NCBI RefSeq assembly: GCF_010728725.1
Contig: NZ_AP022606.1
Location: forward strand, 2,356,001 to 2,420,000
Direction of reading: 5' to 3'
Origin: Mycobacterium branderi
GTDB taxonomy: Bacteria > Actinomycetota > Actinomycetes > Mycobacteriales > Mycobacteriaceae
DNA: 64,000 bases
Part shown: piece by piece, positions 22,460 to 64,000 of the stretch
How the letters are laid out: each line of letters starts with the position of its first letter
How positions within the stretch are numbered: position 1 is the first letter of the stretch
The notes under the pieces: generated by a model
What the model was told of the DNA's origin: nothing
Seen by the model: the letters and a program-made list of their open reading frames with translations, nothing else
The model's database searches: none
Position numbers and translations under genes: made by a program

Positions 22460-23119
22460 GTGGCCGGACCAGACAACGAGCACTTGGCAGCAATGCGTGT
22501 CGAGTACGGCTCCGCCGAAAAGGACGGCAGCCCGGACCTCGACACCGATTGGCTGGCGGACGGTTGGGTTGCCCTGCTGCGCAAGTGGATTCGCGATGCC
22601 GAAGACGCCGGTGTCGCCGAACCCAACGCCTTTGTGTTGGCCACTGTCGCGTCCGGGAAGCCAGTCAGCCGCTCGGTGCTGTGCAAGAGCATCGACGAGC
22701 GCGGCATCACCTTCTACACCAACTACGACTCGGCCAAGGGGGCGGAGCTGGCCGCCACGCCCTACGCGTCGGCGACCTTCCCGTGGTATTTGCTGGGCCG
22801 GCAATTCCACATTCGCGGTCGGGTGACCAAGGTCGACCCCGAGGAGACGCAGGAGTACTGGTCGAAGCGACCCCGCGGCTCGCAGCTGGGCGCGTGGGCG
22901 TCGCACCAGTCCCGGCCGATCGCGTCGCGGGCGGCGTTGCTCGAGCAACTCGCCGAGGTGACCGCCCGGTTCGCCGACACCGAGCACATCCCGGTCCCGC
23001 CGAACTGGGGAGGTTACCGCATCGCGCCTGAGGTGGTCGAGTTCTGGCAGGGCCGGGAAAACCGGGTGCACAACAGGATTCGCGTGGTAGACGGCCGCAT
23101 CGAGCGCCTGCAGCCGTGA
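22460..23119 (+). CDS. pdxH: pyridoxamine 5'-phosphate oxidase PdxH
   Basis: FMN-dependent oxidase producing pyridoxal phosphate in the PLP salvage pathway. The 219-residue sequence shows [62 protein letters not shown] and the C-terminal [13 protein letters not shown], all diagnostic. The GTG at 22460 gives [17 protein letters not shown]. In M. tuberculosis pdxH is elsewhere (Rv2607); here it sits between citA and gltA2. Confidence 0.93.
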
Positions 23120-48442: not shown

Positions 48443-48511
48443 TAAGTGCGCTCTGTCACAGATCTAGCGCCGTCCCCTGGTTAGGCTCTGAACGAATTCA
48501 TTGCCTCTACA

Positions 48512-48529
48512 CGGATTTTCAGCAATCCG
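48512..48529. promoter_or_regulatory. dyad CGGATT-N6-AATCCG before sbtA
   Basis: Perfect 6-bp arms (48512-48517 and 48524-48529), 22 bp upstream of the sbtA ATG. The right arm overlaps GCAAT, and ATTGC lies 20 bp to the left, half-sites like those of the AT-rich dyads near the arsR genes. It could be an operator or a small hairpin in the leader. Confidence 0.35.
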
Positions 48530-48551
48530 CACCCACCAAGGGAGATTTGCG

Positions 48552-49775
48552 ATGCTCCTGGAGTTCTGGGAGAACTTCCGTCACAACCTCTTCAAGCCGT
48601 TGTTGTTGTTCTTCTACCTCGGCTTCTTCATCCCAATTCTCAAGGTGCAGTTCGAGTTTCCCTTTGTGATCTATCAGGGCGTGACGATGTATCTGCTGCT
48701 GGCCATCGGCTGGCACGGCGGTGAAGAACTTGCCGCGGTCCACGTTTCGAGCATCGGCCAAATCCTGGGGTTCGTCATCCTCGGATTCGCACTCAACTTC
48801 CTGATCGGTTTGATCGCCTACCAGATGCTGACCCGCACGACCAAAATGCGGCGGATCGACAGAGCGACGGTCGCGGGCTATTACGGGTCGGACTCGGCAG
48901 GCACCTTCGCAACCTGTATCGGCGTCCTTACGACTGTGGGGATGGCCTTCAACGGTTTCATGTCGGTGATGCTGGCCGTCATGGAAATGCCGGGCTGCCT
49001 GGTGGCGCTGTATTTGGCGGCGCGGCTGCGGCACAAGGGGATGGACGCCCTGGGGAACATGCCGGGCGAGCCCGGCTACCAGCCGGTGGCCAGCGTGGGG
49101 CCCGGTGCGGCCAGCCGGCCGGCTCTCGGGGAGCGCCTCGACGACGAACACCAGCTGGCGATCGAGCAGGAGACCGAGCTTGCACTGGAGCTGCAGAAGC
49201 ATCCCGCTAGCAGCGTCGATTCGGGTGACTCAAATTCGGGCGCTCGCACAGTCAAGCTGCTCAGGGAAGTCGTGCTCAACCCGGGCCTCTATCTGCTCTT
49301 CGGTGGCATCCTCATCGGCCTGATCAGTCGGTTGCAGGGGCTGAAGGTCGTGCACGACAACGACAAGGTCTTTGTGGCCGCCTTCCAGGGCGTGCTGTGT
49401 CTGTTCTTGCTCGAGATGGGGATGACTGCCGCTCGGCGATTGAAAGACCTCAAGACCGCGGGTCCGGGTTTCATCGCCTTCGGCCTACTGGCGCCCAACG
49501 TATTCGCCACTATCGGGCTCATCGTCGCTCACGCCTACGCCCACTTCACCCATGCCCACTTCGAGCCGGGCACTTATATTCTGTTCGCTGTACTCTGCGG
49601 CGCTGCGTCATACATCGCCGTACCCGCAGTCCAGCGGCTGGCGATCCCCGAGGCGAGCCCGACTCTGCCGCTGGCCGCATCACTGGGCTTGACGTTCGCG
49701 TACAACGTCACGATCGGGATCCCGGTCTATATCGAGATTTCAAAGCTCATTACGCCGTGCTTCCCGGTCACCTGA
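48552..49775 (+). CDS. SbtA-type sodium-dependent bicarbonate transporter
   Basis: 407 residues, about ten transmembrane helices in two inverted halves separated by a soluble loop (about 160-240) rich in charged residues. LGFFIPILKVQFEFPFVIYQGVTMYLLLAIGWHGGEEL, AGYYGSDSAGTFATCIGVL, FNGFMSVMLAVMEMPGCLVALYLAARLR and GTYILFAVLCGAASYIAVPAVQRLAIPEASPTLPLAASLGLTFAYNVTIGIPVYIEI match the SbtA family, which imports bicarbonate with sodium in cyanobacteria. No SbtB-like gene is adjacent. ATG at 48552 with GGGAGA. In a mycobacterium it would feed carboxylases (inference). Confidence 0.87.
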   Translation: MLLEFWENFRHNLFKPLLLFFYLGFFIPILKVQFEFPFVIYQGVTMYLLLAIGWHGGEELAAVHVSSIGQILGFVILGFALNFLIGLIAYQMLTRTTKMRRIDRATVAGYYGSDSAGTFATCIGVLTTVGMAFNGFMSVMLAVMEMPGCLVALYLAARLRHKGMDALGNMPGEPGYQPVASVGPGAASRPALGERLDDEHQLAIEQETELALELQKHPASSVDSGDSNSGARTVKLLREVVLNPGLYLLFGGILIGLISRLQGLKVVHDNDKVFVAAFQGVLCLFLLEMGMTAARRLKDLKTAGPGFIAFGLLAPNVFATIGLIVAHAYAHFTHAHFEPGTYILFAVLCGAASYIAVPAVQRLAIPEASPTLPLAASLGLTFAYNVTIGIPVYIEISKLITPCFPVT

Positions 49776-49965: not shown

Positions 49966-50358
49966 CTAGAGCCGGGGGCCGTAGCGCTCGATGTAAGCGC
50001 GATGAATGTGAGCATCGCGCTTACGGGCCCGCTCGTCGACGAGGTCGGGGTCGAGTCCGTGCTGGGCGAGTCGGTGCCGGCGCCAAACTTTGTTGAGGGC
50101 GTGGGAGAAAAGGATGAACGGGAGGAAAATGGGCAGGGTCATGCTGGCGTGGACGTACAGGGTTGTCGGGATCAGCCAAAACGGGGAGAGCACCAGAAAG
50201 GCCGGGATGATGACTCGGATCATCGTTCGTGCGGTGGCTCCTCTGCCGGCGAGGTCGTTGTGTACCCAATCGCGCATCGAGGAGGGCAGGACCCGCCCGT
50301 AGGAGTAGGCAATGTATTGGTAGGCGGTCGGTCGATGGCGTTGCGAATCGTTGTTCAT
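49966..50358 (-). CDS. DUF5313 family membrane protein
   Basis: 130 residues. RPTAYQYIAYSYGRVLPSSMRDWVHNDLAGRGATARTMIRVIIPAFLVLSPFWLIPTTLYVHASMTLPIFLPFILFSHALNKVWRRHRLAQHGLDPDLVDE is the full mycobacterial DUF5313 pattern with two transmembrane segments. Function unknown. Divergent from the thiolase gene, 288 bp apart. The 190 bp between sbtA and this gene hold nothing recognisable. Confidence 0.85.
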   Translation of the reverse strand: MNNDSQRHRPTAYQYIAYSYGRVLPSSMRDWVHNDLAGRGATARTMIRVIIPAFLVLSPFWLIPTTLYVHASMTLPIFLPFILFSHALNKVWRRHRLAQHGLDPDLVDERARKRDAHIHRAYIERYGPRL

Positions 50359-50646: not shown

Positions 50647-51798
50647 ATGTCAGAGGCCTACATCGTGGAAGCCGTGCGTACCGCAGTCGGCAAGAAGGGC
50701 GGCTCGCTCTGCGGGGTGCACCCCGCTGATCTTGGCGCGGGGGTCATCGCGCAGGTGCTGGAGCGCAGTCACGTGGACCCGGCGTCGATCGACGATGTCA
50801 TTTTCGGCTGTGTCGACGCGATCGGCCCGCAGGCCGGGAACATCGCGCGCACCGCGTGGCTCGCGGCCGGCTTCCCGGAGCAGGTGCCCGGCGTCACCGT
50901 CGACCGCCAGTGCGGGTCGAGCCAACAGGCATTGCACTTCGCCGCGCAAGCAGTCATGAGCGGCACCGCCGAGCTGATCGTGGCCGGCGGCGTTCAGAAC
51001 ATGAGCATGATACCGATCGCCTCCGCGATGACCGTCGGCCAACAGTTCGGGTTCGAAACCCCATTCAAGGGCTCGACCGGCTGGGAGCACCGCTACAGCG
51101 ACCAGGAGGTGTCGCAGTTCCGCGGCGCCGAGCTCATCGCCGAGAAATGGGACATCAGCCGCGAGGAGATGGAGCGCTGGGCCCTGCAAAGTCACGAGCG
51201 CGCCAGCAAGGCGATCGCCGAGGGCCGATTCGACAACGAGATCGTGCCCGTCGGCACATTCAGCGTGGACGAGGGTCCGCGGGAGACCAGCCTGGAGAAG
51301 ATGGCGGGCCTGCCCTGCCTGATGGAGGGTGGTCGACTGACGGCGGCCCTCGCCAGCCAGATCTGCGACGGCGCCAGCGCGACCCTCGTCGCGTCCGAGT
51401 CCGCGGTCGCGGAGCACGGCCTCCAGCCCCGCGCCCGGATACACCACCTCAGCGCCCGCGGCGCGGACCCGATCTTGATGCTCAGCGCGCCGATCCCGGC
51501 GACCGAATATGCGCTGGAAAAGACCGGTCTGACCATGGCCGAAATCGACGTGGTGGAGATCAACGAGGCCTTCGCACCAGTCGTGCTGTCTTGGATAAAA
51601 GAGACCGGCGCCGACCCAGCCACGGTCAACCGCAATGGCGGCGCCATCGCGCTGGGTCACCCGCTCGGCGCGACAGGCACCAAGCTGTTCGCGACGCTGC
51701 TCAACGAACTCGAACGCACCGGCGGACGCTACGGCCTGCAGACCATCTGCGAGGGCGGCGGCACCGCCAACGTCACCATCATCGAGCGCCTATATTGA
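50647..51798 (+). CDS. acetyl-CoA acetyltransferase/thiolase, FadA6-like
   Basis: A 383-residue thiolase with the nucleophile in DRQCGSSQQALHFAAQ (about Cys89), [39 protein letters not shown] and the second active cysteine in TICEGGGTANVTII. It is closest, from memory, to FadA6 of the cholesterol-ring catabolism genes (EKMAGL, HRYSDQEVSQFRGAELIAEKWDISREEMER). It would cleave a beta-ketoacyl-CoA. ATG at 50647 with AGAAGGG. Convergent with the second thiolase. Confidence 0.9.
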   Translation: MSEAYIVEAVRTAVGKKGGSLCGVHPADLGAGVIAQVLERSHVDPASIDDVIFGCVDAIGPQAGNIARTAWLAAGFPEQVPGVTVDRQCGSSQQALHFAAQAVMSGTAELIVAGGVQNMSMIPIASAMTVGQQFGFETPFKGSTGWEHRYSDQEVSQFRGAELIAEKWDISREEMERWALQSHERASKAIAEGRFDNEIVPVGTFSVDEGPRETSLEKMAGLPCLMEGGRLTAALASQICDGASATLVASESAVAEHGLQPRARIHHLSARGADPILMLSAPIPATEYALEKTGLTMAEIDVVEINEAFAPVVLSWIKETGADPATVNRNGGAIALGHPLGATGTKLFATLLNELERTGGRYGLQTICEGGGTANVTIIERLY

Positions 51799-51911: not shown

Positions 51912-53093
<1,182 letters not shown>

Positions 53094-53162: not shown

Positions 53163-54023
53163 CTACCGGTGTGGGCGGTTGACCGCGGCGTCGACATGGC
53201 GGGCAATGGCTCCGATCGACAGCAGTGGCTTATCGGCGCCGGGCAACGTTTCCCACATCGGGGTCACCGCTGCGATGCCGCGCGCTGCGGCCACGAAGTG
53301 CTCAACGCCCGAGACGGCAATCCCGTGTCCACACAGCGCGCCGAATAGCCCCGGTACGACGAAGGCCGCCAGGTCGCTGGGGTCGGGCAGTCGAAGTTTG
53401 ACATCGCCGAATTCCAGCAACGATGCGCTGGGGTCCGGGTTGATCACCACGTCGTGTTCGGCGCACAATCGCCGATACGGGTAGGCCGATGCATCGCGGG
53501 TGTGCCAAAAGGTCAGTTCGGGGACTCCACTTCCCACCAGGATAGGTCCCAACAGCGGGCACGCGCTCGCGTCCGCTAGCGCAACGCGCGCGCGGTGAAC
53601 CACCACTAACGGCTCCAAGGCAGCGAGAACTGCCGCCGCGTGAACAGTGGTCACGGCATCGGTAAACGAAACGATTAGAGGGCCGCCCGCTTGCGCTACC
53701 TGGTCGCTAACTTCGGCGGCGTCCGGCGCATCCAATCCGATGACGAAGGCAGCCGACAACGAACTGAGCTGACCGCTCAGCTGGGTCGCGACCACAGGTG
53801 GTGTGCCGGCCAATTCCAGGGCGACCGCACGCAGAAGGGTTGCGTCGTTGATCAGTCGCACGTAACGGTCAAGCGTGGACAACCGCCTCAACCGGGCTGG
53901 TCCGCTGCTGGGTGCGTGACGTGAGACCCCGACGATCCCCACCAGCGGCGGGCTGAGACGCCGGCGACTCCACGTTCCGAGGGATGAGGCGTCATCGGCG
54001 CTTTCCCAGGCCATCTCATCCAT
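53163..54023 (-). CDS. malic-enzyme-like protein A (degenerate)
   Basis: 286 residues; clearly paralogous to the gene at 62276. Its C-terminal half aligns by eye with malic enzymes: SFTDAVTTVHAAAVLAAL at the place of the FHDDQHGTA..LAAL segment, RARVALADASACPLLGPILVGSGVPELTFW where the NAD-binding GAGAAG segment belongs, and LAAFVVPGLFGALCGHGIAVSGVEHFVAAARGIAAV for the NN..AFPG.F.GAL....I...M..AAA..IA block. The dinucleotide glycines and the catalytic Asp/Lys residues are not evident, so it is probably not an active malic enzyme. Transcribed away from the hyc-like operon. Confidence 0.6.
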   Translation of the reverse strand: MDEMAWESADDASSLGTWSRRRLSPPLVGIVGVSRHAPSSGPARLRRLSTLDRYVRLINDATLLRAVALELAGTPPVVATQLSGQLSSLSAAFVIGLDAPDAAEVSDQVAQAGGPLIVSFTDAVTTVHAAAVLAALEPLVVVHRARVALADASACPLLGPILVGSGVPELTFWHTRDASAYPYRRLCAEHDVVINPDPSASLLEFGDVKLRLPDPSDLAAFVVPGLFGALCGHGIAVSGVEHFVAAARGIAAVTPMWETLPGADKPLLSIGAIARHVDAAVNRPHR

Positions 54024-54258
54024 CGCGCCAGTCTAACAAGATGCTTAATTGCATAGAACCGCAATCGAGCGATTGCCTGCGTACTCTTCGTGCCGAGGAA
54101 ATCAAGCTCACCGGCGGGGCAGGGCCCTCTAGTCGGCGCGCACGCAGGGCCTCGCGCTTCGCGACGAGTAGCGCGCGATCAGCTGTCGCCAGTCGGTGGT
54201 GTTTGCTATCGGCCCGACGGCCACGCCCCGCCGATCGAGGCCGCTATTTACGAATCTC

Positions 54259-54277
54259 AGCAATTACAGATATTGCT
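54259..54277. promoter_or_regulatory. AT-rich dyad AGCAAT-N7-ATTGCT before the first arsR gene
   Basis: Perfect 6-bp arms (54259-54264 and 54272-54277) around TACAGAT, 77 bp before the arsR ATG. This fits ArsR-family autoregulation; Rv0081 of M. tuberculosis is known to control its own operon. The rest of the 330-bp gap (54024-54353) contains AT-rich stretches such as TACTATCTGATACT near 54290-54303 that may hold the promoter, and no gene. Confidence 0.6.
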
Positions 54278-54353
54278 TTGTAGTGTGTTTACTATCTGAT
54301 ACTTTCTTAAACTAAGCTGACCGGTGGAAATCGAACTCGTCGGGAGATGCGTG

Positions 54354-54698
54354 ATGTCGGAGCCGTTGTACGAGCTCAAAGCAGAGTTTTTTAAGACTCT
54401 GGGGCATCCGGCACGGATCAGGATCCTGGAGTTGCTGTCGGTGCGGGACCGGTCGGTGGGTGAACTGTTGCCCGAGGTGAGGTTGGAGTCGTCGAATCTG
54501 TCTCAGCAGCTGGGCGTGCTGCGAAGGGCGGGTGTGGTCGTCGCGAGCAAGGACGGTAACTCGGTGATTTATTCGATCGCGTCGCCCGACATCGCGGAGT
54601 TGCTGGCGGTCGGGCGCAAGGTGTTGACCGGGATGCTCAGCGACCGGGTCGCGGTGCTGGAGGATCTGCGCGCCGGCGACTCGGCGGTTGGACGCTAG
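54354..54698 (+). CDS. ArsR-family regulator, Rv0081-like
   Basis: 114 residues, same length as Rv0081. Winged helix-turn-helix: YELKAEFFKTLGHPARIRILELLSVRDRSVGELLPEVRLESSNLSQQLGVLRRAGVVVASKDGNSVIYSIASPDIAELLAVGRKVL. No metal-binding cysteine pair is seen (only short stretches without the CxC of metal sensors). Rv0081 belongs to the DosR-linked hypoxia network and heads the Rv0081-Rv0087 operon, as here; hycG follows 4 bp after the stop. ATG at 54354 is preceded by GGGAGA; a GTG lies one codon upstream. Confidence 0.92.
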   Translation: MSEPLYELKAEFFKTLGHPARIRILELLSVRDRSVGELLPEVRLESSNLSQQLGVLRRAGVVVASKDGNSVIYSIASPDIAELLAVGRKVLTGMLSDRVAVLEDLRAGDSAVGR

Positions 54699-54702
54699 CG
54701 GT

Positions 54703-55182
54703 ATGGGATGGATCAGTAAGATCGTGCGCGTCGGCCGCGTTGTCGAGCGGGCTCGTAGTATGCCGGCTTCGGCAATGGAACCGCCTGCGGGAGTTGAAGG
54801 TTCGCTGCAGGTTCGTCATGTCGATGCCGGCTCGTGCAACGGCTGTGAGGTCGAGATATCCGGCGCGTTCGGGCCGGTATATGACGCGGAACGGTTCGGG
54901 GCGCGGCTGGTCGCCTCCCCCCGGCATGCCGATGCGTTGTTGGTGACCGGGGTGGTGACCCGCAATATGGTTGAGCCGCTGCGTAATACGCTCGCGGCGA
55001 CACCTCAGCCGCGCGTGGTGATCGCCTGTGGTGACTGCGCCCTCAACCGCGGCGTGTTCACGGATGCATATGGTGTGGTCGGCGCGGTCGGTGAGATCGT
55101 GCCTGTCGATGTCGAGGTCGCCGGTTGCCCGCCGACGCCTGCGCAGATCGTGGACGCTCTGCGCTCGGTAACGGGGAAATGA
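54703..55182 (+). CDS. hydrogenase-4/complex I small-subunit-like protein (Rv0082-like, HycG/NuoB family)
   Basis: 159 residues. HVDAGSCNGCEVEISGAFGPVYDAERFG holds Cys45 and Cys48; VVIACGDCALNRGVF has Cys109 and Cys112; VAGCPPTPAQIVDAL has Cys142. These are the ligands of the N2-type [4Fe-4S] cluster next to the quinone/hydrogen site in the NuoB/HycG family, so the cluster is probably retained. ATG at 54703. Its stop overlaps the next ATG (55179-55182). Located on the cytoplasmic face of the complex. Confidence 0.9.
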   Translation: MGWISKIVRVGRVVERARSMPASAMEPPAGVEGSLQVRHVDAGSCNGCEVEISGAFGPVYDAERFGARLVASPRHADALLVTGVVTRNMVEPLRNTLAATPQPRVVIACGDCALNRGVFTDAYGVVGAVGEIVPVDVEVAGCPPTPAQIVDALRSVTGK

Positions 55183-57155
55183 CGGCCACACTCACGGCCG
55201 CTCCGATAGAGGCGCCGAACACGTTGCGCCGCAATGTCATCGCTTCGCGTCTCGCCGGCCTTACCTCGTCGGGCCTCGGAATCGGCGGTGCGGTGTGCGG
55301 GATCGCGGCGGTATTCGGCGTGCGGCAAACGGTGCATGTCGGATGGCTGCTTCCGTTGTCCGGGTTGCAGCTGGACCTCGATCCGGTCGGCGGGTTCTTC
55401 ATGGCGTTGATCGGCGGGGTCGCGGTTCCGGTCGGCTTCTATTCGATCGGCTATGCACGGCGTGAGCATCTGGGCCGGGTTTCGTTGGCGATGTTGCCGT
55501 TGTTCGTCGCGGCGATGATGTTGGTGCCCGCCGCCGGCTCGGTCACGACGTTTCTGTTGGCGTGGGAGTTGATGGCGACTGCGTCGCTGGTACTGGTGCT
55601 GGCGCAGCACACTCGGCCCGAGGTTCGTTCGGCGGGCTTGTTTTATGCGGTGATGACCCAGCTCGGGTTCGTCGCGATCCTGATCGGGTTGATGGTGTTG
55701 TCGGCTGCCGGCGGCGCCGACCGCTTTGCGGACTTGACGCGGGTGAGCGATGGTGCCCGGACCGTGGTGTTCGTGCTGACGATGGCCGGCTTCGGGTCCA
55801 AGGCGGGTCTGGTGCCGTTGCATGCCTGGCTGCCGCGGGCGCACCCGGAGGCGCCGAGTCCGGTATCGGCGTTGATGAGCGCGGCGATGGTCAACCTGGG
55901 CGTCTACGGCATCGTCCGGTTCGATCTGCAGCTGCTCGGCCCGGGTCCGCGCTGGTGGGCCATCACGCTGCTGGTCGTGGGAGGCGTGTCCGCGGTGTAC
56001 GGGGTGCTGCAGGCGTCGGTGGCGACGGATCTCAAACGGCTGCTTGCGTATTCGACCACCGAGAACATGGGGCTGATTACTCTCGCGCTGGGGGCGGCGA
56101 CGCTGTTGGCGGATTCGGGCGCCCATTCGGCGGCGACGATCGCGATGGCTGCGGCACTGCTGCACCTGATCGGGCACGCGGCGTTCAAGAGCCTGGGGTT
56201 CCTCGCGGCGGGATCGGTGCTGGCCGCGACCGGGCTGCGGGATCTGGACTTGCTCGGGGGGTTGGCGCGGCGGATGCCGGCGACGACGGCGCTGTTCGGG
56301 GTGGCCGCGCTCGGCGCGTCCGGGTTGCCGCTGGGTGCGGGGTTTGTCAGCGAGTGGCTGCTGGTGCAGTCGTTGATTCATGCCGCGCCGCAGCACAACA
56401 CGGTCGTGGCGTTGGCGGCGCCGCTGGCGGTCGGGGCGGTCGCGCTCACCACAGGACTCGGTGTGGCGGCGATGGTGAAAGCATTCGGTATCGGGTTTCT
56501 GGCCCGCCCGCGCTCGCAGCCGGCTGCCGACGCGCGTGAAGTACCTGCGGTCATGGTGGCGGGAATGGCGCTCGCGGCGACCGGTTGCGTCGTGGTGGCG
56601 GTGGCGCCTCTGGTCGTCGGGTCCATGTTGGGGCGGGTACTCACCGAGCTGCCCGCTTCCCGCGCAGTGGCGTTCACTGATTTCGGCGCGGTTCTGCGGC
56701 TGCCGGGCCTGCACGGCTCGATCGCGCCGGGCGCGATCGCCGCGGCTCTGGCTGCCGCCGTGCTGGCCGCGGTCGGCCTGGCGTGTTGGCGGTCGCGGCG
56801 GCGCTCGGATCCAGTGACGCTGCCGCTGTGGGCCTGTGGCGCCGACGAACTCACCCCACGGATGCAGTACACCGCCACGTCGTTCGCCGAACCGCTGCAA
56901 CGCGTGTTCGATGACGTGCTGCGCCCGGACACCGACATCGAGATCACCCACCTCACCGAGTCGCGCTACCTGGCCGAGGCTGTCACCTACCGGACCCGGA
57001 TCGCCGACGCGATCGAGGAACGGCTCTACGCCCCGGTTATCGGGGCGGTGGCCGCGGCCGCTCAGCTGGTCCGGCGCGCCCACACCGGCAGCGTGCACCT
57101 CTATCTCGCCTACGGCATGCTTGGCGTGCTGATCGTGCTGGTGGTGGCCCGGTGA
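55179..57155 (+). CDS. NuoL/HyfB-like proton-channel subunit (Rv0083-like)
   Basis: A 658-residue integral membrane protein with about 14-16 helices. The antiporter-like module is visible: FLLAWELMATASLVLVL (helix with Glu), GSKAGLVPLHAWLPRAHPEAPSPVSALMSAAMVNLGVYGIVR with the conserved Lys and the HAWLPRAHPEAPS sequence, and AYSTTENMGLITLALGAAT with the conserved glutamate, followed by HLIGHAAFKSLGFLAAGSV. A soluble C-terminal domain (ADELTPRMQYTATSFAEPL) is shared with HycC/HyfB. It would translocate protons or sodium. Confidence 0.9.
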   Translation: MTATLTAAPIEAPNTLRRNVIASRLAGLTSSGLGIGGAVCGIAAVFGVRQTVHVGWLLPLSGLQLDLDPVGGFFMALIGGVAVPVGFYSIGYARREHLGRVSLAMLPLFVAAMMLVPAAGSVTTFLLAWELMATASLVLVLAQHTRPEVRSAGLFYAVMTQLGFVAILIGLMVLSAAGGADRFADLTRVSDGARTVVFVLTMAGFGSKAGLVPLHAWLPRAHPEAPSPVSALMSAAMVNLGVYGIVRFDLQLLGPGPRWWAITLLVVGGVSAVYGVLQASVATDLKRLLAYSTTENMGLITLALGAATLLADSGAHSAATIAMAAALLHLIGHAAFKSLGFLAAGSVLAATGLRDLDLLGGLARRMPATTALFGVAALGASGLPLGAGFVSEWLLVQSLIHAAPQHNTVVALAAPLAVGAVALTTGLGVAAMVKAFGIGFLARPRSQPAADAREVPAVMVAGMALAATGCVVVAVAPLVVGSMLGRVLTELPASRAVAFTDFGAVLRLPGLHGSIAPGAIAAALAAAVLAAVGLACWRSRRRSDPVTLPLWACGADELTPRMQYTATSFAEPLQRVFDDVLRPDTDIEITHLTESRYLAEAVTYRTRIADAIEERLYAPVIGAVAAAAQLVRRAHTGSVHLYLAYGMLGVLIVLVVAR

Positions 57156-58111
57156 ATGTGATGTCCTACGTGGCGGGCGCCGCGCAGATCCTCGCGGTGA
57201 TGGCCGGCGCGCCCCTGGTGATCGGCGCGATGCGTCAAGTGCGGGCACGGCTGGAGGGCCGCGGCGGCGGTGGTGTGCTGCAACCCTGGCGCGATCTGCG
57301 CAAGCAGCTCGGCAAACAGCAGATCAGCCCGCAGGGCACCACGGTCGTATTCGCTGCCGCGCCGGCGATCGTCGCCGGGACGACGTTGCTCATCGTCGCG
57401 ATTGCACCCATCGTGGCGACGGGGTCCCCGCTGGATGCTGCCGCCGACCTGTTCGCCGTCGTCGGCCTGTTGTTTCTGGGCACCGTCGCGTTGACGCTCG
57501 CCGGCATCGACACCGGCACCTCGTTCGGCGGCATGGGTGCCAGCCGCGAGATCACCATCGCCGCATTGGTTGAGCCGACGATCCTGCTCGCCGTGTTCGC
57601 CTTGTCGATTCCCGCCGGCTCGGCGAATCTGGGTGCGCTGGTGACCAACACCATCGATCATCCCGGGCAGGTGGTGTCGCTGACCGGTTTGCTGGCGTTC
57701 GTCGCGCTGGTGATCGTGATCGTCGCCGAGACCGGCCGGCTACCCGTCGACAACCCGGCCACGCACCTGGAGTTGACGATGGTGCACGAGGCGATGGTCC
57801 TCGAATATGCCGGTCCGCGCCTGGCGCTGGTCGAATGGGCATCGGGGATGCGGCTCACCGTGCTGTTGGCGTTGCTGGCCAATCTGTTCCTGCCCTGGGG
57901 GATCGCCGGCGGGCATCCGAGCGCCGTTGACGTCGCGATCGGGCTTGCGGCGATCACCGCCAAGGTGACCGTGCTGGCGGTGGCGCTGGCCGGCGCCGAG
58001 GTGTTCATCGCCAAGCTGCGGCTGTTCCGGGTGCCCGAGCTGCTCGCCGGGTCGTTTCTGCTTGCCCTGCTCGCGGTGACGGCCGCGAACTTCTTCACCG
58101 CGCGGGCCTAA
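57152..58111 (+). CDS. hycD: formate-hydrogenlyase-type membrane subunit HycD (NuoH family)
   Basis: 319 residues with about eight transmembrane helices. GGVLQPWRDLRKQLGKQQISPQGT, GTSFGGMGASREITIAALVEP, VIVIVAETGRLPVDNPATHLELTMVHEAMVLEYAGPRLAL and LAGAEVFIAKLRLFRVPELL are diagnostic of HycD/HyfC; the last holds acidic and histidine residues of the coupling channel. It anchors the cytoplasmic arm to the proton-pumping subunits. GTG start overlapping the previous stop. Corresponds to Rv0084. Confidence 0.92.
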   Translation: MNVMSYVAGAAQILAVMAGAPLVIGAMRQVRARLEGRGGGGVLQPWRDLRKQLGKQQISPQGTTVVFAAAPAIVAGTTLLIVAIAPIVATGSPLDAAADLFAVVGLLFLGTVALTLAGIDTGTSFGGMGASREITIAALVEPTILLAVFALSIPAGSANLGALVTNTIDHPGQVVSLTGLLAFVALVIVIVAETGRLPVDNPATHLELTMVHEAMVLEYAGPRLALVEWASGMRLTVLLALLANLFLPWGIAGGHPSAVDVAIGLAAITAKVTVLAVALAGAEVFIAKLRLFRVPELLAGSFLLALLAVTAANFFTARA

Positions 58112-58123
58112 AGGGGGACAGCA

Positions 58124-58786
58124 ATGAGTGACGCGGACTTTGCGATCCTGATCGATTTCGCCGCGGGCGGTTTGGTGCTGGCGGCGGTGCTGATCGTGTG
58201 GCGGCGCGACCTTCGGGCCATCGTTGGGCTTCTCGCCTGGCAAGGTGTTGCGCTTGCCGCGATCCCGCTGGTTCGCGGTGTGCACGAAGCCGACGCCGCG
58301 TTGATTGTCGTAGGCGGCGCGGTACTCGTGCTGCGCGCCGTGGTGTTGCCGCGGCTGCTGGCCCGTGCTGTGGGCGCCGAGCAACGCGACCAGCGCGACG
58401 CGACACCGCTGGTCAACACGGCCACCTCGCTGCTGATCGCCGCGGCGCTGACCGTTGTCGCGTTCGCGGTGAGCCAGCCGATAGCGAACCTGGAACCCAG
58501 CGCCACCACGAACGCGGTCCCGGCCGCGTTCGGGGTGGTTCTCATCGCCCTGTTCGTCATGACGACCCGCCGGCACGCCGTGTCGCAGGCGGCCGGATTT
58601 CTGATGCTGGACAACGGGATCGCCGCGACCGCGTTTCTGCTGACCGCCGGTGTACCGCTGATCGTCGAACTCGGTGCGTCGCTGGACGTGCTGTTCGCGG
58701 TGATCGTCATCGGAGTGCTCACCGGGCGGCTGCGACGCGCCTTCGGTGGCGCCGATCTCGACCAACTACAGGAGCTGCGCGACTGA
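58124..58786 (+). CDS. hycP: HyfE/HycP-like membrane subunit (NuoK family)
   Basis: 220 residues with six or seven transmembrane helices. The C-terminal half has [20 protein letters not shown] and [25 protein letters not shown], characteristic of HyfE/HycP and resembling NuoK with its membrane acidic residues. ATG at 58124, 12 bp after the hycD stop, with a GGGGGA ribosome-binding site. The TGA overlaps the hycQ ATG. Corresponds to Rv0085. Confidence 0.88.
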
Positions 58787-60255
58787 TGACAGCACTGCTA
58801 CTAGCCGCCATCCTCGCGCCGCTGGCCGCGGCGGGCGCCGCGGCGGCACTCGGGTGGCGCCGCCTCACCAGCACTGTGACCGTGCTCTCGGCGGCCACGG
58901 TGCTCGGCTGCGGTGCGGCGCTCTCCTTCACCGTCGGGTCACAGCAGTACTTCGTGCTGGGGGGCCTGCTGCGGGTCGATGCCCTCTGCGTCACCATGCT
59001 CATCGTCATCGGGATTGTCGGCACGCTGGCCACCTGGGCCAGCATCGGCTACATCGACGCCGAATGCGCCGACGGCCACACCGACGCCGGCGGAGCCAGG
59101 CTGTACGGGGCCCTGACACCAGCGTTCCTCGCCGCGATGGTCGTGGCGGTGTGCGCCAACAACATCGGCGTGATCTGGGTGGCCATCGAGGCCACCACGG
59201 TCATCACCGCGTTCCTGGTCGGTCACCGACGCACCCGCACCGCGCTCGAAGCGACCTGGAAATACGTCATCATCTGCTCGGTCGGCATCGCGATCGCCTT
59301 CCTGGGCACCGTGCTGCTGTACTTCGCCGCGCGCCACGCCGGCGCGTCGGCGGCGCTCGCACTGAATCTCGACGTTCTTGGCGCACACGCACACACCCTC
59401 GATCCGGCGGTCAGCAGGCTCGCCGGCGGTCTGCTGCTCATCGGCTACGGCGCCAAGGCCGGGCTGGCTCCCTTTCACACCTGGCTGGCCGATGCGCACA
59501 GCCAGGCGCCGGCCCCGGTGTCGGCGCTGATGAGCGGGGTGTTGCTGTCGGTGGCGATGTCGGTTTTGATCCGCATCACTCCGATCGTCGGCGCAGCCGC
59601 CGGTCCCACATTTCTGCGCGCCGGGCTGCTCACGGTCGGGTTGGTCACGCTGTTTGTCGCTGCGCTCATGCTGACGGTGACCGGCGATGTGAAGCGGATG
59701 CTGGCCTACTCCTCGATGGAAAATATGGGTTTGATCGCCATCGCCGCGGCGGCCGGGACCACGCTGGCGATCGCCGCGCTGTTGCTGCACGTCCTGGCAC
59801 ACGGCGTCGGCAAGACGGTGCTGTTTTTGGCCGGCGGACAACTTCAGGCCGCGCACGGCTCCACCGCCATCGCCGACATCACCGGCGTCGTGCAACGCTC
59901 ACACCTGATCGGCGGGTCGTTCGCCGTCGGGCTGATCGTCCTGCTGGGCTTGCCACCGTTCGCGATGTTCGCCAGCGAGCTGGCCCTGGCCCACGCACTG
60001 GCCGATGCCCGGTTGGCTTGGGTCCTTGGCGCCGCGATGCTGCTGATCGCCATCGCCTTCGCCGCGCTGGTGCGCAACGCGAGCCGCATGCTGCTCGGCC
60101 CTGCGGCCGCCGCGGCGCCCCCCATCACCGCGCCCACCACCGTCACCGCGGCCCTGCTCGTCGGCGTCGCCGCCTCGATCGTCCTCGGTGTCACCGCGGG
60201 CCCGTTGACCGACCTGTTCAGCACCGCCGCAGGCCAGCTCGGGGCGCTGCGATGA
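58786..60255 (+). CDS. hycQ: HyfF/HycQ-like proton-channel subunit (NuoN/NuoL family)
   Basis: 489 residues with about 13-14 helices. Conserved features: NNIGVIWVAIEATTVITAFLVGH, GYGAKAGLAPFHTWLADAHSQAPAPVSALMSGVLLSVAMSVLIRI (Lys plus TWLADAHSQAPAP) and KRMLAYSSMENMGLIAIAAAAG (Glu), then HVLAHGVGKTVLFLAGG. This is the second antiporter-like subunit of the complex. It overlaps its neighbours on both sides. Corresponds to Rv0086. Confidence 0.92.
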   Translation: MTALLLAAILAPLAAAGAAAALGWRRLTSTVTVLSAATVLGCGAALSFTVGSQQYFVLGGLLRVDALCVTMLIVIGIVGTLATWASIGYIDAECADGHTDAGGARLYGALTPAFLAAMVVAVCANNIGVIWVAIEATTVITAFLVGHRRTRTALEATWKYVIICSVGIAIAFLGTVLLYFAARHAGASAALALNLDVLGAHAHTLDPAVSRLAGGLLLIGYGAKAGLAPFHTWLADAHSQAPAPVSALMSGVLLSVAMSVLIRITPIVGAAAGPTFLRAGLLTVGLVTLFVAALMLTVTGDVKRMLAYSSMENMGLIAIAAAAGTTLAIAALLLHVLAHGVGKTVLFLAGGQLQAAHGSTAIADITGVVQRSHLIGGSFAVGLIVLLGLPPFAMFASELALAHALADARLAWVLGAAMLLIAIAFAALVRNASRMLLGPAAAAAPPITAPTTVTAALLVGVAASIVLGVTAGPLTDLFSTAAGQLGALR

Positions 60256-61730
60256 CGCCGGAATGGTCGCGGCAGCCGGTGTCGTCCGACGAACTGCGAG
60301 ACAGGGCCGAAGAACTCACGACCAACGGTTTCCGGCTGGCACTGGTCGCAGCGCACGACGATGCGGACCGGTTGCGGGTCGTCTATCTATTCCTCGCCGG
60401 GCGCCCTGACCGCCGCGTCGAGCTCGAATGCGTTCTGCCCGTTGATGATCCGTCGCTACCGTCGCTTGCATATTTGTCGTTTCCGGCTGGCCGCTTCGAA
60501 CGCGAAATGCTCGACCTGTACGGCATCAGCCCGATCGGGCATCCCCGGCCGCGCCGCCTGGTGCGCCACGCGCACTGGCCCGAAGCCTGGTATCCGATGC
60601 GGGCCGACGCGGGCCCGGCACCCGAATTCACGGCGACCGGTCACTTCCCGTTCGTCACCGTCGACGGCACCGGGGTGTATGAGATCCCGGTCGGCCCGGT
60701 GCATGCCGGGCTGATCGAACCCGGCCACTTCCGGTTCTCCGTCGTCGGTGAAACCGTGTTGCGCCTCAAGGCCCGGTTGTGGTTCGTGCACCGCGGCCTC
60801 GAACAACTCTTCCACGGCCGCATCGCAAGCGGCGCGGTCGATCTCGCCGAACGGGTCAGCGGCGACACTTCCGCCGCACACGCTCTCGCGCACAGTCTCG
60901 CCGTCGAAGACGCCCTTGGGATAGTGGTCCCCAACAATGTGCACCGGCTGCGGGCCCTGCTGATCGAACTCGAACGGCTCTACAACCATGCCGCCGATCT
61001 GGGCGCCCTTGCCAATGACGTCGGATTCGCCCTGGCCAACGCACACGCCCTGCGGATCCGCGAAGAACTACTCCGCATCAACGCCGCCGTCACCGGGCAC
61101 CGGCTGCTACGCGGGGCCATCCGACCGGGCGGCGTCACGCTGCATGCGCTTCCCGACGCGAGGCAGTTGCGGTCCATCGCGGCCGACCTTGCCGAGGTCG
61201 CCGAGCTGACGCTGGGAAACAGTGTCATCTACGACCGCTTCGCCGGCACCGCCATCCTGCCCGCCGACGACGCCTGCGCCATGGGCTGCCTGGGATACGT
61301 CGCCCGCGCTAGCGGCATCCGCACCGACGCCCGAGTCGAGCATCCCAGCGTCGCGCTGCCCGTCACCGAGATCACCCAGTCGGCCGGCGACGTCCTGGCC
61401 CGCTACACGGTCCGGCGCGACGAATTCGCCGCCTCCACCACGTTGGCCACCTACCTGGCCGAATCCCACACCGGCACCCTCGACTACCACACACCGACTC
61501 CCGTGGTGGGCGGCCCGCGCAGCGGTGTCGGCATCGTCGAAGGCTGGCGCGGCACCATCGTGCACCGCGTCGAGATCGCCGCCGATTGCCGCATCACCCG
61601 CGCCAAGATCGTCGACCCGTCCTGGTTCAACTGGCCGGCGCTTCCAGTCGCCATGGCCGACACGATCGTCCCCGACTTCCCGCTGACCAACAAGAGTTTC
61701 AACCTGTCCTACGCCGGCAACGATCTGTGA
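60252..61730 (+). CDS. hycE: hydrogenase-like large subunit HycE without nickel ligands (NuoCD-like)
   Basis: 492 residues, same length as Rv0087. The N-terminal NuoC-like domain includes FPAGRFEREMLDLYGISPIGHPRPRRLVRHAHWPEAWYPMR; the rest is the NuoD/HycE fold. Active [NiFe] enzymes need RxCGxC and DPCxxC. Here the first reads LAERVSGDTSAAHA (Ser203 and Thr206 for the cysteines) and the C-terminus reads FPLTNKSFNLSYAGNDL with no cysteine. So no nickel site can form and the protein cannot be a hydrogenase; a quinone- or other redox-linked role like complex I is more likely. Confidence 0.92.
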   Translation: MTPEWSRQPVSSDELRDRAEELTTNGFRLALVAAHDDADRLRVVYLFLAGRPDRRVELECVLPVDDPSLPSLAYLSFPAGRFEREMLDLYGISPIGHPRPRRLVRHAHWPEAWYPMRADAGPAPEFTATGHFPFVTVDGTGVYEIPVGPVHAGLIEPGHFRFSVVGETVLRLKARLWFVHRGLEQLFHGRIASGAVDLAERVSGDTSAAHALAHSLAVEDALGIVVPNNVHRLRALLIELERLYNHAADLGALANDVGFALANAHALRIREELLRINAAVTGHRLLRGAIRPGGVTLHALPDARQLRSIAADLAEVAELTLGNSVIYDRFAGTAILPADDACAMGCLGYVARASGIRTDARVEHPSVALPVTEITQSAGDVLARYTVRRDEFAASTTLATYLAESHTGTLDYHTPTPVVGGPRSGVGIVEGWRGTIVHRVEIAADCRITRAKIVDPSWFNWPALPVAMADTIVPDFPLTNKSFNLSYAGNDL

Positions 61731-61759
61731 ACACCGACGCCATTCCATCTGCCGTAGTA

Positions 61760-61779
61760 ATTTGCTAAAATTCGCAAAT
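61760..61779. promoter_or_regulatory. AT-rich dyad ATTTGC-N8-GCAAAT before the second arsR gene
   Basis: Perfect 6-bp arms (61760-61765 and 61774-61779), 43 bp before the TTG start of the second arsR gene and 30 bp after hycE. Same type as the dyads at 50436 and 54259. Confidence 0.6.
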
Positions 61780-61821
61780 AACTAACACAGTGTCGATTGT
61801 CAGTCGGGAGGGGAGGCCATC

Positions 61822-62178
61822 TTGGCGGACTCGCGCCAGCCGCTGTACCGGATGAAGGCGGAGTTCTTCAAAACGCTGGGTCATCCGGCCCGCATCCGGG
61901 TCCTCGAGCTGCTCAGTAGCCGCGAATACGCGGTCTCCGAGATGCTGCCCGAAGTCGGTGTCGAGCCGGCCAACCTGTCTCAGCAGCTGTCCATTCTGCG
62001 TCGCGCCGGCCTGGTGACTGCCCGCCGAGAGGGCTTGTCAGTGCGCTATGCGCTGACCTCACCGCAAGTCGCCGAGCTGCTGGTGGTCGCCAGGACCATC
62101 CTCACCGGAGTCGTCGCCGGCCAGGCCGAAACCCTCGAAGAAATCCCCGAATCCCTGCTGGCCGAGCCAACAGGCTGA
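61822..62178 (+). CDS. second ArsR-family regulator, paralogue of the Rv0081-like protein
   Basis: 118 residues. RQPLYRMKAEFFKTLGHPARIRVLELLSSREYAVSEMLPEVGVEPANLSQQLSILRRAGLVTARREGLSVRYALTSPQVAELLVVARTIL is very close to the regulator at 54354 (most of the helix-turn-helix is identical). The start appears to be TTG at 61822, preceded by a strong GGGAGGGGAGG. It follows hycE on the same strand but has its own upstream dyad, and precedes the malic-enzyme-like and pckA genes, which it may regulate. Confidence 0.88.
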   Translation: MADSRQPLYRMKAEFFKTLGHPARIRVLELLSSREYAVSEMLPEVGVEPANLSQQLSILRRAGLVTARREGLSVRYALTSPQVAELLVVARTILTGVVAGQAETLEEIPESLLAEPTG

Positions 62179-62187
62179 ACTAGCGAC

Positions 62188-62215
62188 AGGTGGGGTACCC
62201 CGCCTGCTCCCCACT
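62188..62215. terminator. GC-rich hairpin after the second arsR gene
   Basis: AGGTGGGGTACCCCGCCT (62188-62205) is a near-perfect 18-bp palindrome with one mismatch pair; GTGGGG can alternatively pair with CCCCAC at 62208-62213. It starts 10 bp after the arsR stop and is followed by TTTTCT at 62225-62230. Either a terminator or an operator for the next gene. Confidence 0.4.
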
Positions 62216-62275
62216 ACTTGCAGATTTTCTAACGTGCACATCTTACAGAGTCGGTTGTGCGAGAACGGAACGCCA

Positions 62276-63228
62276 GTGAAAACAAACAACCCCACTGAAA
62301 GGGCTGGCGGCGCGGGGGTCGAGACCGGCCCGGATGTCACCGGCATCGACGTGGGCGTCATCGGCGTGGCCCCGCCCCGGACACGAAGCCATGCGCCACG
62401 CCCCTGCGCCCGAGATACGGACCGGCTCGCGTGGACGGCGATGGAAGACTACGCAGCTCTGGTTCGCGACCGCACACCGATCCGCGCCGGGTGCCTGCCC
62501 TTGGCTCGCGCAGGCGCCGACACCGTGGCGGCACGCATTGCGGGTTTGCCGTCGCACGTGTCGGCCGTGTTCGTCGTGGGGACGGGGCCATCGGAATCGG
62601 CGAGCGTGCAGCTACGGGTGGCCAGCCTCAAGGGCCCGCTGGTCATCACTGAACTCGATGTGATCACCGCAGCCCTCGGGGGCGCGGCGATCATGACCCT
62701 GCGTCGTCGCGTTGTCGCGCCGCGACGCGGCCGAATCGTGGTGACCGGTGCCGAGGCCCTGCCGCGGCTCGGGCCGCTGCTGCGCGCCGCCGGCGGCGGC
62801 ACCTTCACCAGCTGGAACGAGAGTGACGCGCAGGCCTATCCACTCTGCGGCCTCATGGCGCACCACGACATCCTGATCGACCTGGCCGGAATTGCGCCCG
62901 ACAACTGCGCACCCGGGCGCACGCTGAGGCTGCCGCGCGAACGGTTCGACTACGGCGCACTCGTACTGCCCGGCCTGCTCAGCGCCCTGTGCAGGCACCA
63001 CACCGCGCGCTTGACGATCGACGTACTCGCCGCGTGCGCCCGGGCGCTGGCACTGATCGCCCCGCCCGACCAGATCCTGCCCGCACTGACCGAACCGTTA
63101 CTGGTACCCGCGGTGGCCAGGGAAGTGGCCCGGACGCTGGCCGAGCATCCCCACCACTGCCGTCCCGACACCGCTAGCACCCATCCCGTAACCAAGCCCC
63201 CAACATCGACGTCCGGAGGACAACCATC

Positions 63229-63232
<4 letters not shown>
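62276..63232 (+). CDS. malic-enzyme-like protein B (degenerate), coupled to pckA
   Basis: 318 residues from GTG 62276 (another GTG at 62234 is possible; neither has a strong ribosome-binding site). [13 protein letters not shown]...[88 protein letters not shown] aligns with protein A at 53163. [36 protein letters not shown] and [25 protein letters not shown] recall the C-terminal malic-enzyme blocks (AFPG.F.GAL; ILPS.FD..V..AVA.AV). The glycine-rich NAD motif is degenerate. The stop overlaps the pckA ATG (ATGA at 63229-63232). Confidence 0.6.

Positions 63233-64000
<768 letters not shown>

Follow-up and report, generated by a model that had tools for sequence, protein, structure and literature searches.

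The stretch of DNA analyzed here (the window; 64,000 nucleotides of Mycobacterium branderi contig NZ_AP022606.1) contains a complex I/hydrogenase-like operon, hereafter hyc-like, two genes for ArsR-type regulators (ArsR1 and ArsR2), pckA for a GTP-type phosphoenolpyruvate (PEP) carboxykinase (PEPCK), and, one on either side of the operon, two genes for proteins that we call MEL1 and MEL2. These neighbors had been named in the original prediction, and all of them are present. It had also held that the open reading frames of MEL1 and MEL2 are homologous, and their positions and paralogy are borne out by a pairwise alignment with 35% identity at E 2e-30; the span of the likeness, put at about 180 residues, is in fact 265. 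At E <= 0.001 the organism's own 5.98-Mb genome contains no match to either protein other than the other one. Neither has a match in Pfam over the curated cut-off or in NCBIfam, weak matches of single MEL sequences (DUF6732 at E 0.096, ornithine cyclodeaminase at E 0.031, and others) being taken as chance, and a PDB sequence search with MEL2 alone as the query found none.

Profile comparison with hhalign, a profile search of the PDB, and fold comparison each give malic enzyme as a relative of MEL. Collinearity of the two starts at the GTAVLGLG motif and runs through to the C-terminal end, and in the PDB profile search 2a9f matched at a whole-sequence E of 9e-4, yet its best single stretch reached an i-Evalue of only 0.068. 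Single sequences gave weak hhalign results for some members (prob 2.2 for MEL1, 62.8 for MEL2), so the homology of MEL1 to malic enzyme rests on its likeness to the MEL family. As a control we used the glutamate-dehydrogenase family, which malic enzyme itself matches (score 67.5) but MEL does not (18.7). Foldseek, from which the full-length MEL2 model (pLDDT 43.6) was left out, returned 36 rows at E <= 0.001 with low TM-scores, 7 of them kainate-receptor chains (prob 0.84-0.93). In a second fold comparison 18 malic enzymes ranked above the ferrochelatase, FolD/MTHFD, and GluK rows, which we read as reflecting a common arrangement. The model is weak and the profile match strong, and together they give a malic-enzyme fold with collinear sequence. 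The resemblance of the C-terminal halves to malic enzymes, which had been proposed along with a profile or structure check, is thus real by all three comparisons. As far as sequence and modeled fold can, they show MEL to be descendants of malic enzymes in which the N-terminal part is gone, the catalytic and cofactor motifs have disappeared, and the rest of the fold is kept.

Bacterial malic enzymes (MaeB and the short NAD(P)-malic enzymes; PDB 2a9f, 1vl6, 6zn4) have the fold and its order in common with MEL, which still have a PG(L/V/I) motif and the stretch at the C-terminus but lack about 80 N-terminal residues, have the catalytic lysine replaced, and have lost, wholly or in part, the metal-ligand, nucleotide-loop, and substrate-Asn motifs. 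The lysine of MEGK is catalytic in malic enzymes, and the acids of LED and DDQHGT are metal ligands. We aligned 32 MEL rows with 8 full-length relatives (family f41, described below) and 17 malic enzymes, 3 of which are printed; the near-copies L220, L226, L229, and L232 and the remnant L218 were omitted from alignment and tree (G and L numbers are ours, for genomes and loci). The N-terminal Tyr motif is absent from all MEL rows, the MEGK lysine is Tyr in 32/32 MEL and Gln in 8/8 f41 rows, and none of these 40 rows has a complete LED, DDQHGT, GxGxxG/A, NPxPE, or RSDxPNQxNN motif. In MEL1 and MEL2 no catalytic motif survives past single letters, and neither keeps an Asp of DDQHGT, so the earlier observation that the glycine-rich dinucleotide loop is not conserved was correct and extends to the other catalytic motifs. 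The PG motif near the C-terminus is present in 39/40 rows. MEL should be inactive, that is, pseudo-malic enzymes.

Closest to MEL (hhalign prob 99.5, score 167) are proteins from an actinobacterial family (f41), in 21 genomes of which the matches span most of the MEL profile. The eight examined are about 405 to 475 residues long (one open frame is longer) and, unlike MEL, are full length with an extra N-terminal domain, which we take to be ACT-like and which gave no Pfam match in the two proteins scanned. Their catalytic motifs are likewise replaced (MEGK by VESQ or LESQ, LED by VHT), and the two scanned matched NCBIfam PRK12861, an NADP-malic enzyme model, at 1e-13 and 1e-8, far under its cut-off; two MELs of G767 matched it weakly (0.002 and 0.0045), also far under the cut-off. 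The tree places f41 and MEL together on a single branch, separate from malic enzymes (support 100/99), where the program warns of long branches meeting. In 3 of the 8 f41 loci examined in context (L210-L217) an ArsR gene adjoins the pseudo-malic enzyme, as in MEL, but no pckA lies in the stretches read.

The genome surveys were draws from larger groups, and the profile searches scored only part of the first-look candidates in each genome (e.g., 6 of 83), so that genome counts are lower bounds. Within the window's genus, MEL profile matches occur in at least 10 of 396 genomes, with a full MEL in nine (G000, G032, G123, G164, G259, G307, G325, G331, G400; G331 and L011 are taken as one genome) and a remnant in G414, where an N-terminal stub follows ArsR2 (L218, 9973-10224). 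A class-wide search gave a match in at least 109/394 genomes, most listed matches being limited to the C-terminal 40 to 110 positions of the profile; we read these as true malic enzymes. Outside the genus, real MEL were found in G453, G760, and G767. A 52-residue match in G192 that the profile search did not recover was discarded. A tblastn search of 72,556 plasmid records found MEL in 18, 17 from Rhodococcus and 1 from Prescottella, where it is annotated as a hypothetical protein in 16 and carries no annotation in 2. The original prediction had treated the bracketing pair as parts of one module; as a conserved unit the pair fails in 6/9 genus genomes with a full MEL, since these have a single copy. 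MEL1 groups with the MEL of G400 (100/99), although its branch there is long (1.31), and MEL2 joins the second copies of G123 and G032 (100/99). On this tree, its long branches noted, we rejected a recent tandem duplication.

Selection on MEL was assessed from the ratio of nonsynonymous to synonymous substitution (dN/dS), which is 0.27-0.44 over nine pairs. Among its neighbors, pckA has 0.20-0.21 in three pairs, hycE 0.22 in the single pair compared, and ArsR2 0.06-0.11 in two. MEL is under purifying selection and is less constrained than its neighbors.

MEL lies in a recurrent gene order. The order ArsR2-MEL-pckA holds in all 18 plasmid records; in L222, L225, and L226 the pckA coding sequence is broken up across two or more reading frames. 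In the genus, MEL directly follows ArsR2, itself after hycE, in 9/9 full-MEL genomes, and pckA comes next in 8/9 (the exception is G331); the pckA ATG overlaps the MEL stop codon by 4 bp in the window and likewise in G164 and G259. DUF5313 genes, SulP transporters, and thiolases stand beside many of the plasmid modules, and carbonic anhydrase beside 6/18. The window counterparts are DUF5313, two thiolases, and an Sbt_1 bicarbonate transporter, in place of which the Rhodococcus plasmids have SulP. The hyc-like operon had been proposed as a partner, but it is missing from the stretches read of 18/18 plasmid records, and 49/49 other hyc loci lack MEL, so we rejected it as the primary link. Those 49 loci also show no ArsR2; 46 are headed by ArsR1 relatives, and the remaining three show hycE only. 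The core of the module is ArsR2-MEL-pckA, and the hyc operon is secondary. The claim of a single module therefore stands for ArsR and pckA and falls for the bracketing pair and the hyc operon.

The hyc-like large subunit occurs in 53/198 genus genomes. In the window the HycE-like protein (60252-61730) has cysteines only at positions 60, 342, 346, and 446, with neither of the two CxxC Ni-ligand pairs of group 4 NiFe-hydrogenases and formate hydrogenlyases and with SGDTS where RxCGxC, the Ni-ligand motif of hydrogenase large subunits, is expected. Since the paired Ni-ligand cysteines are missing, the complex is probably not a hydrogenase. We take ArsR1 and the six hyc-like genes to follow the plan of Rv0081-Rv0087 of M. 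tuberculosis, to which ArsR2, MEL, and pckA are added in the window. One hyc locus, L083 (G133), has NuoH-like, HycP-like, antiporter, and HycE-like genes each twice.

ArsR2 promoters have the palindrome TTGCTAAnATTnGCAA in common. In the window it fits at three positions (Table 1), a number of matches that none of 100 shuffles reached. With up to 2 mismatches it occurs in the window organism's genome at three chromosomal places, all within the module, and at two identical places on the second contig. Among 396 genus genomes the exact form TTGCTAANATTNGCAA is found in 11 and its reversed control in 0. MEL, whole or as a remnant, is present in 8 of these 11 (Fisher p 5e-13); G311, G335, and G409 make up the rest and carry hyc, ArsR2, and pckA. 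Since ArsR2 is present in all 11, the site tracks ArsR2 rather than MEL; the 49 hyc loci without MEL (922 kb) contain no site at up to 2 mismatches. All 18 plasmid records have a zero-mismatch site before ArsR2, and 13/13 records with an unbroken SulP match have a 1-2-mismatch site before it. Between ArsR2 and MEL, 8/18 have 3-mismatch elements like the weaker one in the window. This pattern indicates that the palindrome is probably the ArsR2 operator. Its core appears to resemble an extended -10 box (TGnTAAnAT), a likeness that would be in keeping with repression. The two second-contig sites (G000 contig C2, 16333 and 861175; L236 and L237) lie in near-identical stretches with the same 2-mismatch sequence, possibly repeats near contig ends.

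ArsR2 has a winged helix (Pfam HTH_5 E 1.1e-10; NF033788 over its cut-off). No cysteine, and so no thiol metal-sensing site, is present in 11 of the 12 ArsR2 examined, though a non-thiol site may exist; the sole cysteine, in L202, may precede the true start. For Rv0081, the ArsR of the tuberculosis hyc locus, PMC6177252 reports a dimer with no defined metal site that binds a region with a 22-bp palindrome. The predicted Rv0081 sites listed in PMC4757040 are, by eye, unlike the window palindrome.

That MEL has lost the known active-site motifs and recurs around a PEP-making enzyme, on Rhodococcus plasmids as well as in mycobacteria, suggests regulation rather than catalysis. We infer, at about an even chance of being right, that MEL is non-catalytic, binds a metabolite, and signals by contact to ArsR2 and/or PEPCK. 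In this scheme ArsR2 would repress the module genes through the palindrome; MEL would bind a C4/C3 acid, a nucleotide, or acyl-CoA and pass the signal on by contact, tuning flux at the PEP-pyruvate-oxaloacetate node. As the partner, ArsR2 is favored by adjacency, by ArsR genes beside some f41 relatives, and by its lack of cysteines, and PEPCK by the 4-bp overlap found alike in the window, G164, and G259. A more specific version, which we regard as doubtful, is a split one-component switch, in which a dead malic enzyme would read a C4/C3 metabolite and control the cysteine-less ArsR2, with PEPCK, the thiolases, bicarbonate/anion transport, and, in the mycobacterial case, the hyc-like ion pump under the control of ArsR2; the ArsR neighborhood of the full-length pseudo-malic enzymes would then be its older form.

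Several observations weigh against this proposal. Confidence in the modeled MEL fold is low, with a pLDDT of 55, and of 36-40 in the other four models. A few rows retain parts of motifs: three of them (the two of G767 and the second L201 copy) have a single Asp of DDQHGT, and G164 and G259 have the GxG of the dinucleotide loop. The dN/dS of MEL is above that of ArsR2 and pckA. In G311, G335, and G409 no MEL stands between ArsR2 and pckA, although both genes and the palindrome are retained, so that MEL is not required for the circuit, and copies that do not adjoin ArsR2 (MEL1; the second copies of G123, G032, G760, G767, and L201) speak against an obligate partnership with ArsR2 or PEPCK. At up to 2 mismatches the reversed control has 4 matches in the window organism's genome versus 6 for the palindrome, 2 of the 6 lie outside the module on the second contig, and two MEL genomes, G032 and G325, lack the exact palindrome.

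The malic-enzyme fold could instead have been re-used for a new enzyme, in which Tyr59, an invariant residue, and Asp128, an almost invariant one, would form a new site. The most conserved positions of the 32 MEL rows (Y59 and D198 in 32, D128 in 31, P232-G233-L234 in 31, 32, and 31) would fit this, as would the thiolase and PEPCK neighbors and the position of a second Rhodococcus MEL next to genes for ACP and KasA. The cofactor loop and the metal-ligand motifs are nowhere complete, however, and dN/dS exceeds that of pckA, a true enzyme, and we consider a new activity unlikely. Decay is the opposite possibility, MEL being a non-functional remnant on a mobile ArsR-pckA cassette. Its moderately high dN/dS and its loss or truncation in G311, G335, G409, and G414 agree with this, but the frame is open in all 32 distinct alignment rows, selection is purifying, and a like position is kept from Mycobacterium to Rhodococcus plasmids, which together make a remnant distinctly improbable. 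There is very little chance, in our estimate, that MEL serves the hyc-like membrane complex as an accessory or assembly subunit, a role at which the original prediction had hinted. All 4 real-MEL genomes in the 198-genome draw do carry hyc (Fisher p 0.005), and MEL lies just beyond hycE-ArsR2 in every full-MEL genus genome, but it occurs without hyc in the stretches read of the plasmids and of G453 and G767, and the other hyc loci do without it.

In the literature covered, which took in few subscription papers, we found no pseudo-malic enzyme described together with ArsR or pckA, and the portion of PMC13284343 consulted contains nothing on MEL. The analysis defines a family of inactive malic enzymes, members of which are called hypothetical proteins in plasmid records, and gives it a recurrent genetic partner, ArsR2 with PEPCK, and a specific putative operator. 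An anonymous gene can thereby be tested as an instance of an enzyme fold taken over for regulation at the PEP-pyruvate-oxaloacetate node, and the possibility is raised that some cysteine-less ArsR proteins receive their signal from a partner protein.

Table 1. Genes and operator-like sites around MEL1 and MEL2, in window coordinates.
Feature	Position	Strand	Remarks
Sbt_1 family Na+-dependent bicarbonate transporter	48501..49775	+	Pfam PF05982, E 2.6e-96
DUF5313 family protein	49966..50358	-	Pfam PF17240, E 2e-51
Operator-like palindrome TTGCTAATATTCGCAA	50437..50452	-	exact to TTGCTAANATTNGCAA; between DUF5313 and thiolase A
Thiolase A	50647..51798	+	Pfam thiolase; start set at internal ATG
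Thiolase B	51912..53075	-	Pfam thiolase; relatives annotated steroid 3-ketoacyl-CoA thiolase
MEL1, predicted pseudo-malic enzyme	53163..54023	-	286 aa
Operator-like site TTGCTGAGATTCGTAA	54248..54263	-	2 mismatches; divergent MEL1/ArsR1 promoter region
ArsR1	54354..54698	+	Pfam HTH_5
hyc-like operon (NuoB-like, antiporter, NuoH-like, HycP-like, antiporter, HycE-like)	54688..61730	+	
Putative ArsR2 operator TTGCTAAAATTCGCAA	61762..61777	+	44 bases before ArsR2 start codon
ArsR2, ArsR/SmtB-type regulator without cysteines	61822..62178	+	Pfam HTH_5
Second, weaker operator-like element	62216..62235	+	between ArsR2 and MEL2, by eye
MEL2, predicted pseudo-malic enzyme	62276..63232	+	318 aa; GTG start; stop overlaps pckA start by 4 bp
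pckA, GTP-type PEP carboxykinase	63229..64000 (past window end)	+	619 aa; likeness to annotated relatives

Some further loci bear on these genes. There are two ordinary malic-enzyme loci elsewhere in the M. branderi genome, and at one place (L021, C1:2950331) an ordinary short malic-enzyme gene follows what appears by eye to be a malate dehydrogenase gene. An R. koreensis plasmid (L224) has, some 3 kb ahead of ArsR2-MEL-pckA, a gene (423-1472) with 55% identity to an ordinary malic enzyme. Beside the MEL-less ArsR2-pckA of G409 stand fragments of an sbtA-like gene (L253, 16263-19790), so that the bicarbonate-transporter neighbor recurs, and G311 (L254, 14078-14329) has a MEL1 stub beside ArsR1 and no MEL between ArsR2 and pckA. 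In G767 (L204, 6418-8006) one MEL comes directly after a carbonic anhydrase gene, and an ArsR2-MEL-pckA set on the opposite strand faces it. An R. qingshengii plasmid (L201, 23226-26561) carries a second, divergent MEL, 38% identical to the nearest reference, which closes an apparent operon of ACP, KasA, alpha/beta hydrolase, and MEL, with a 3-mismatch operator-like site upstream at 23116.

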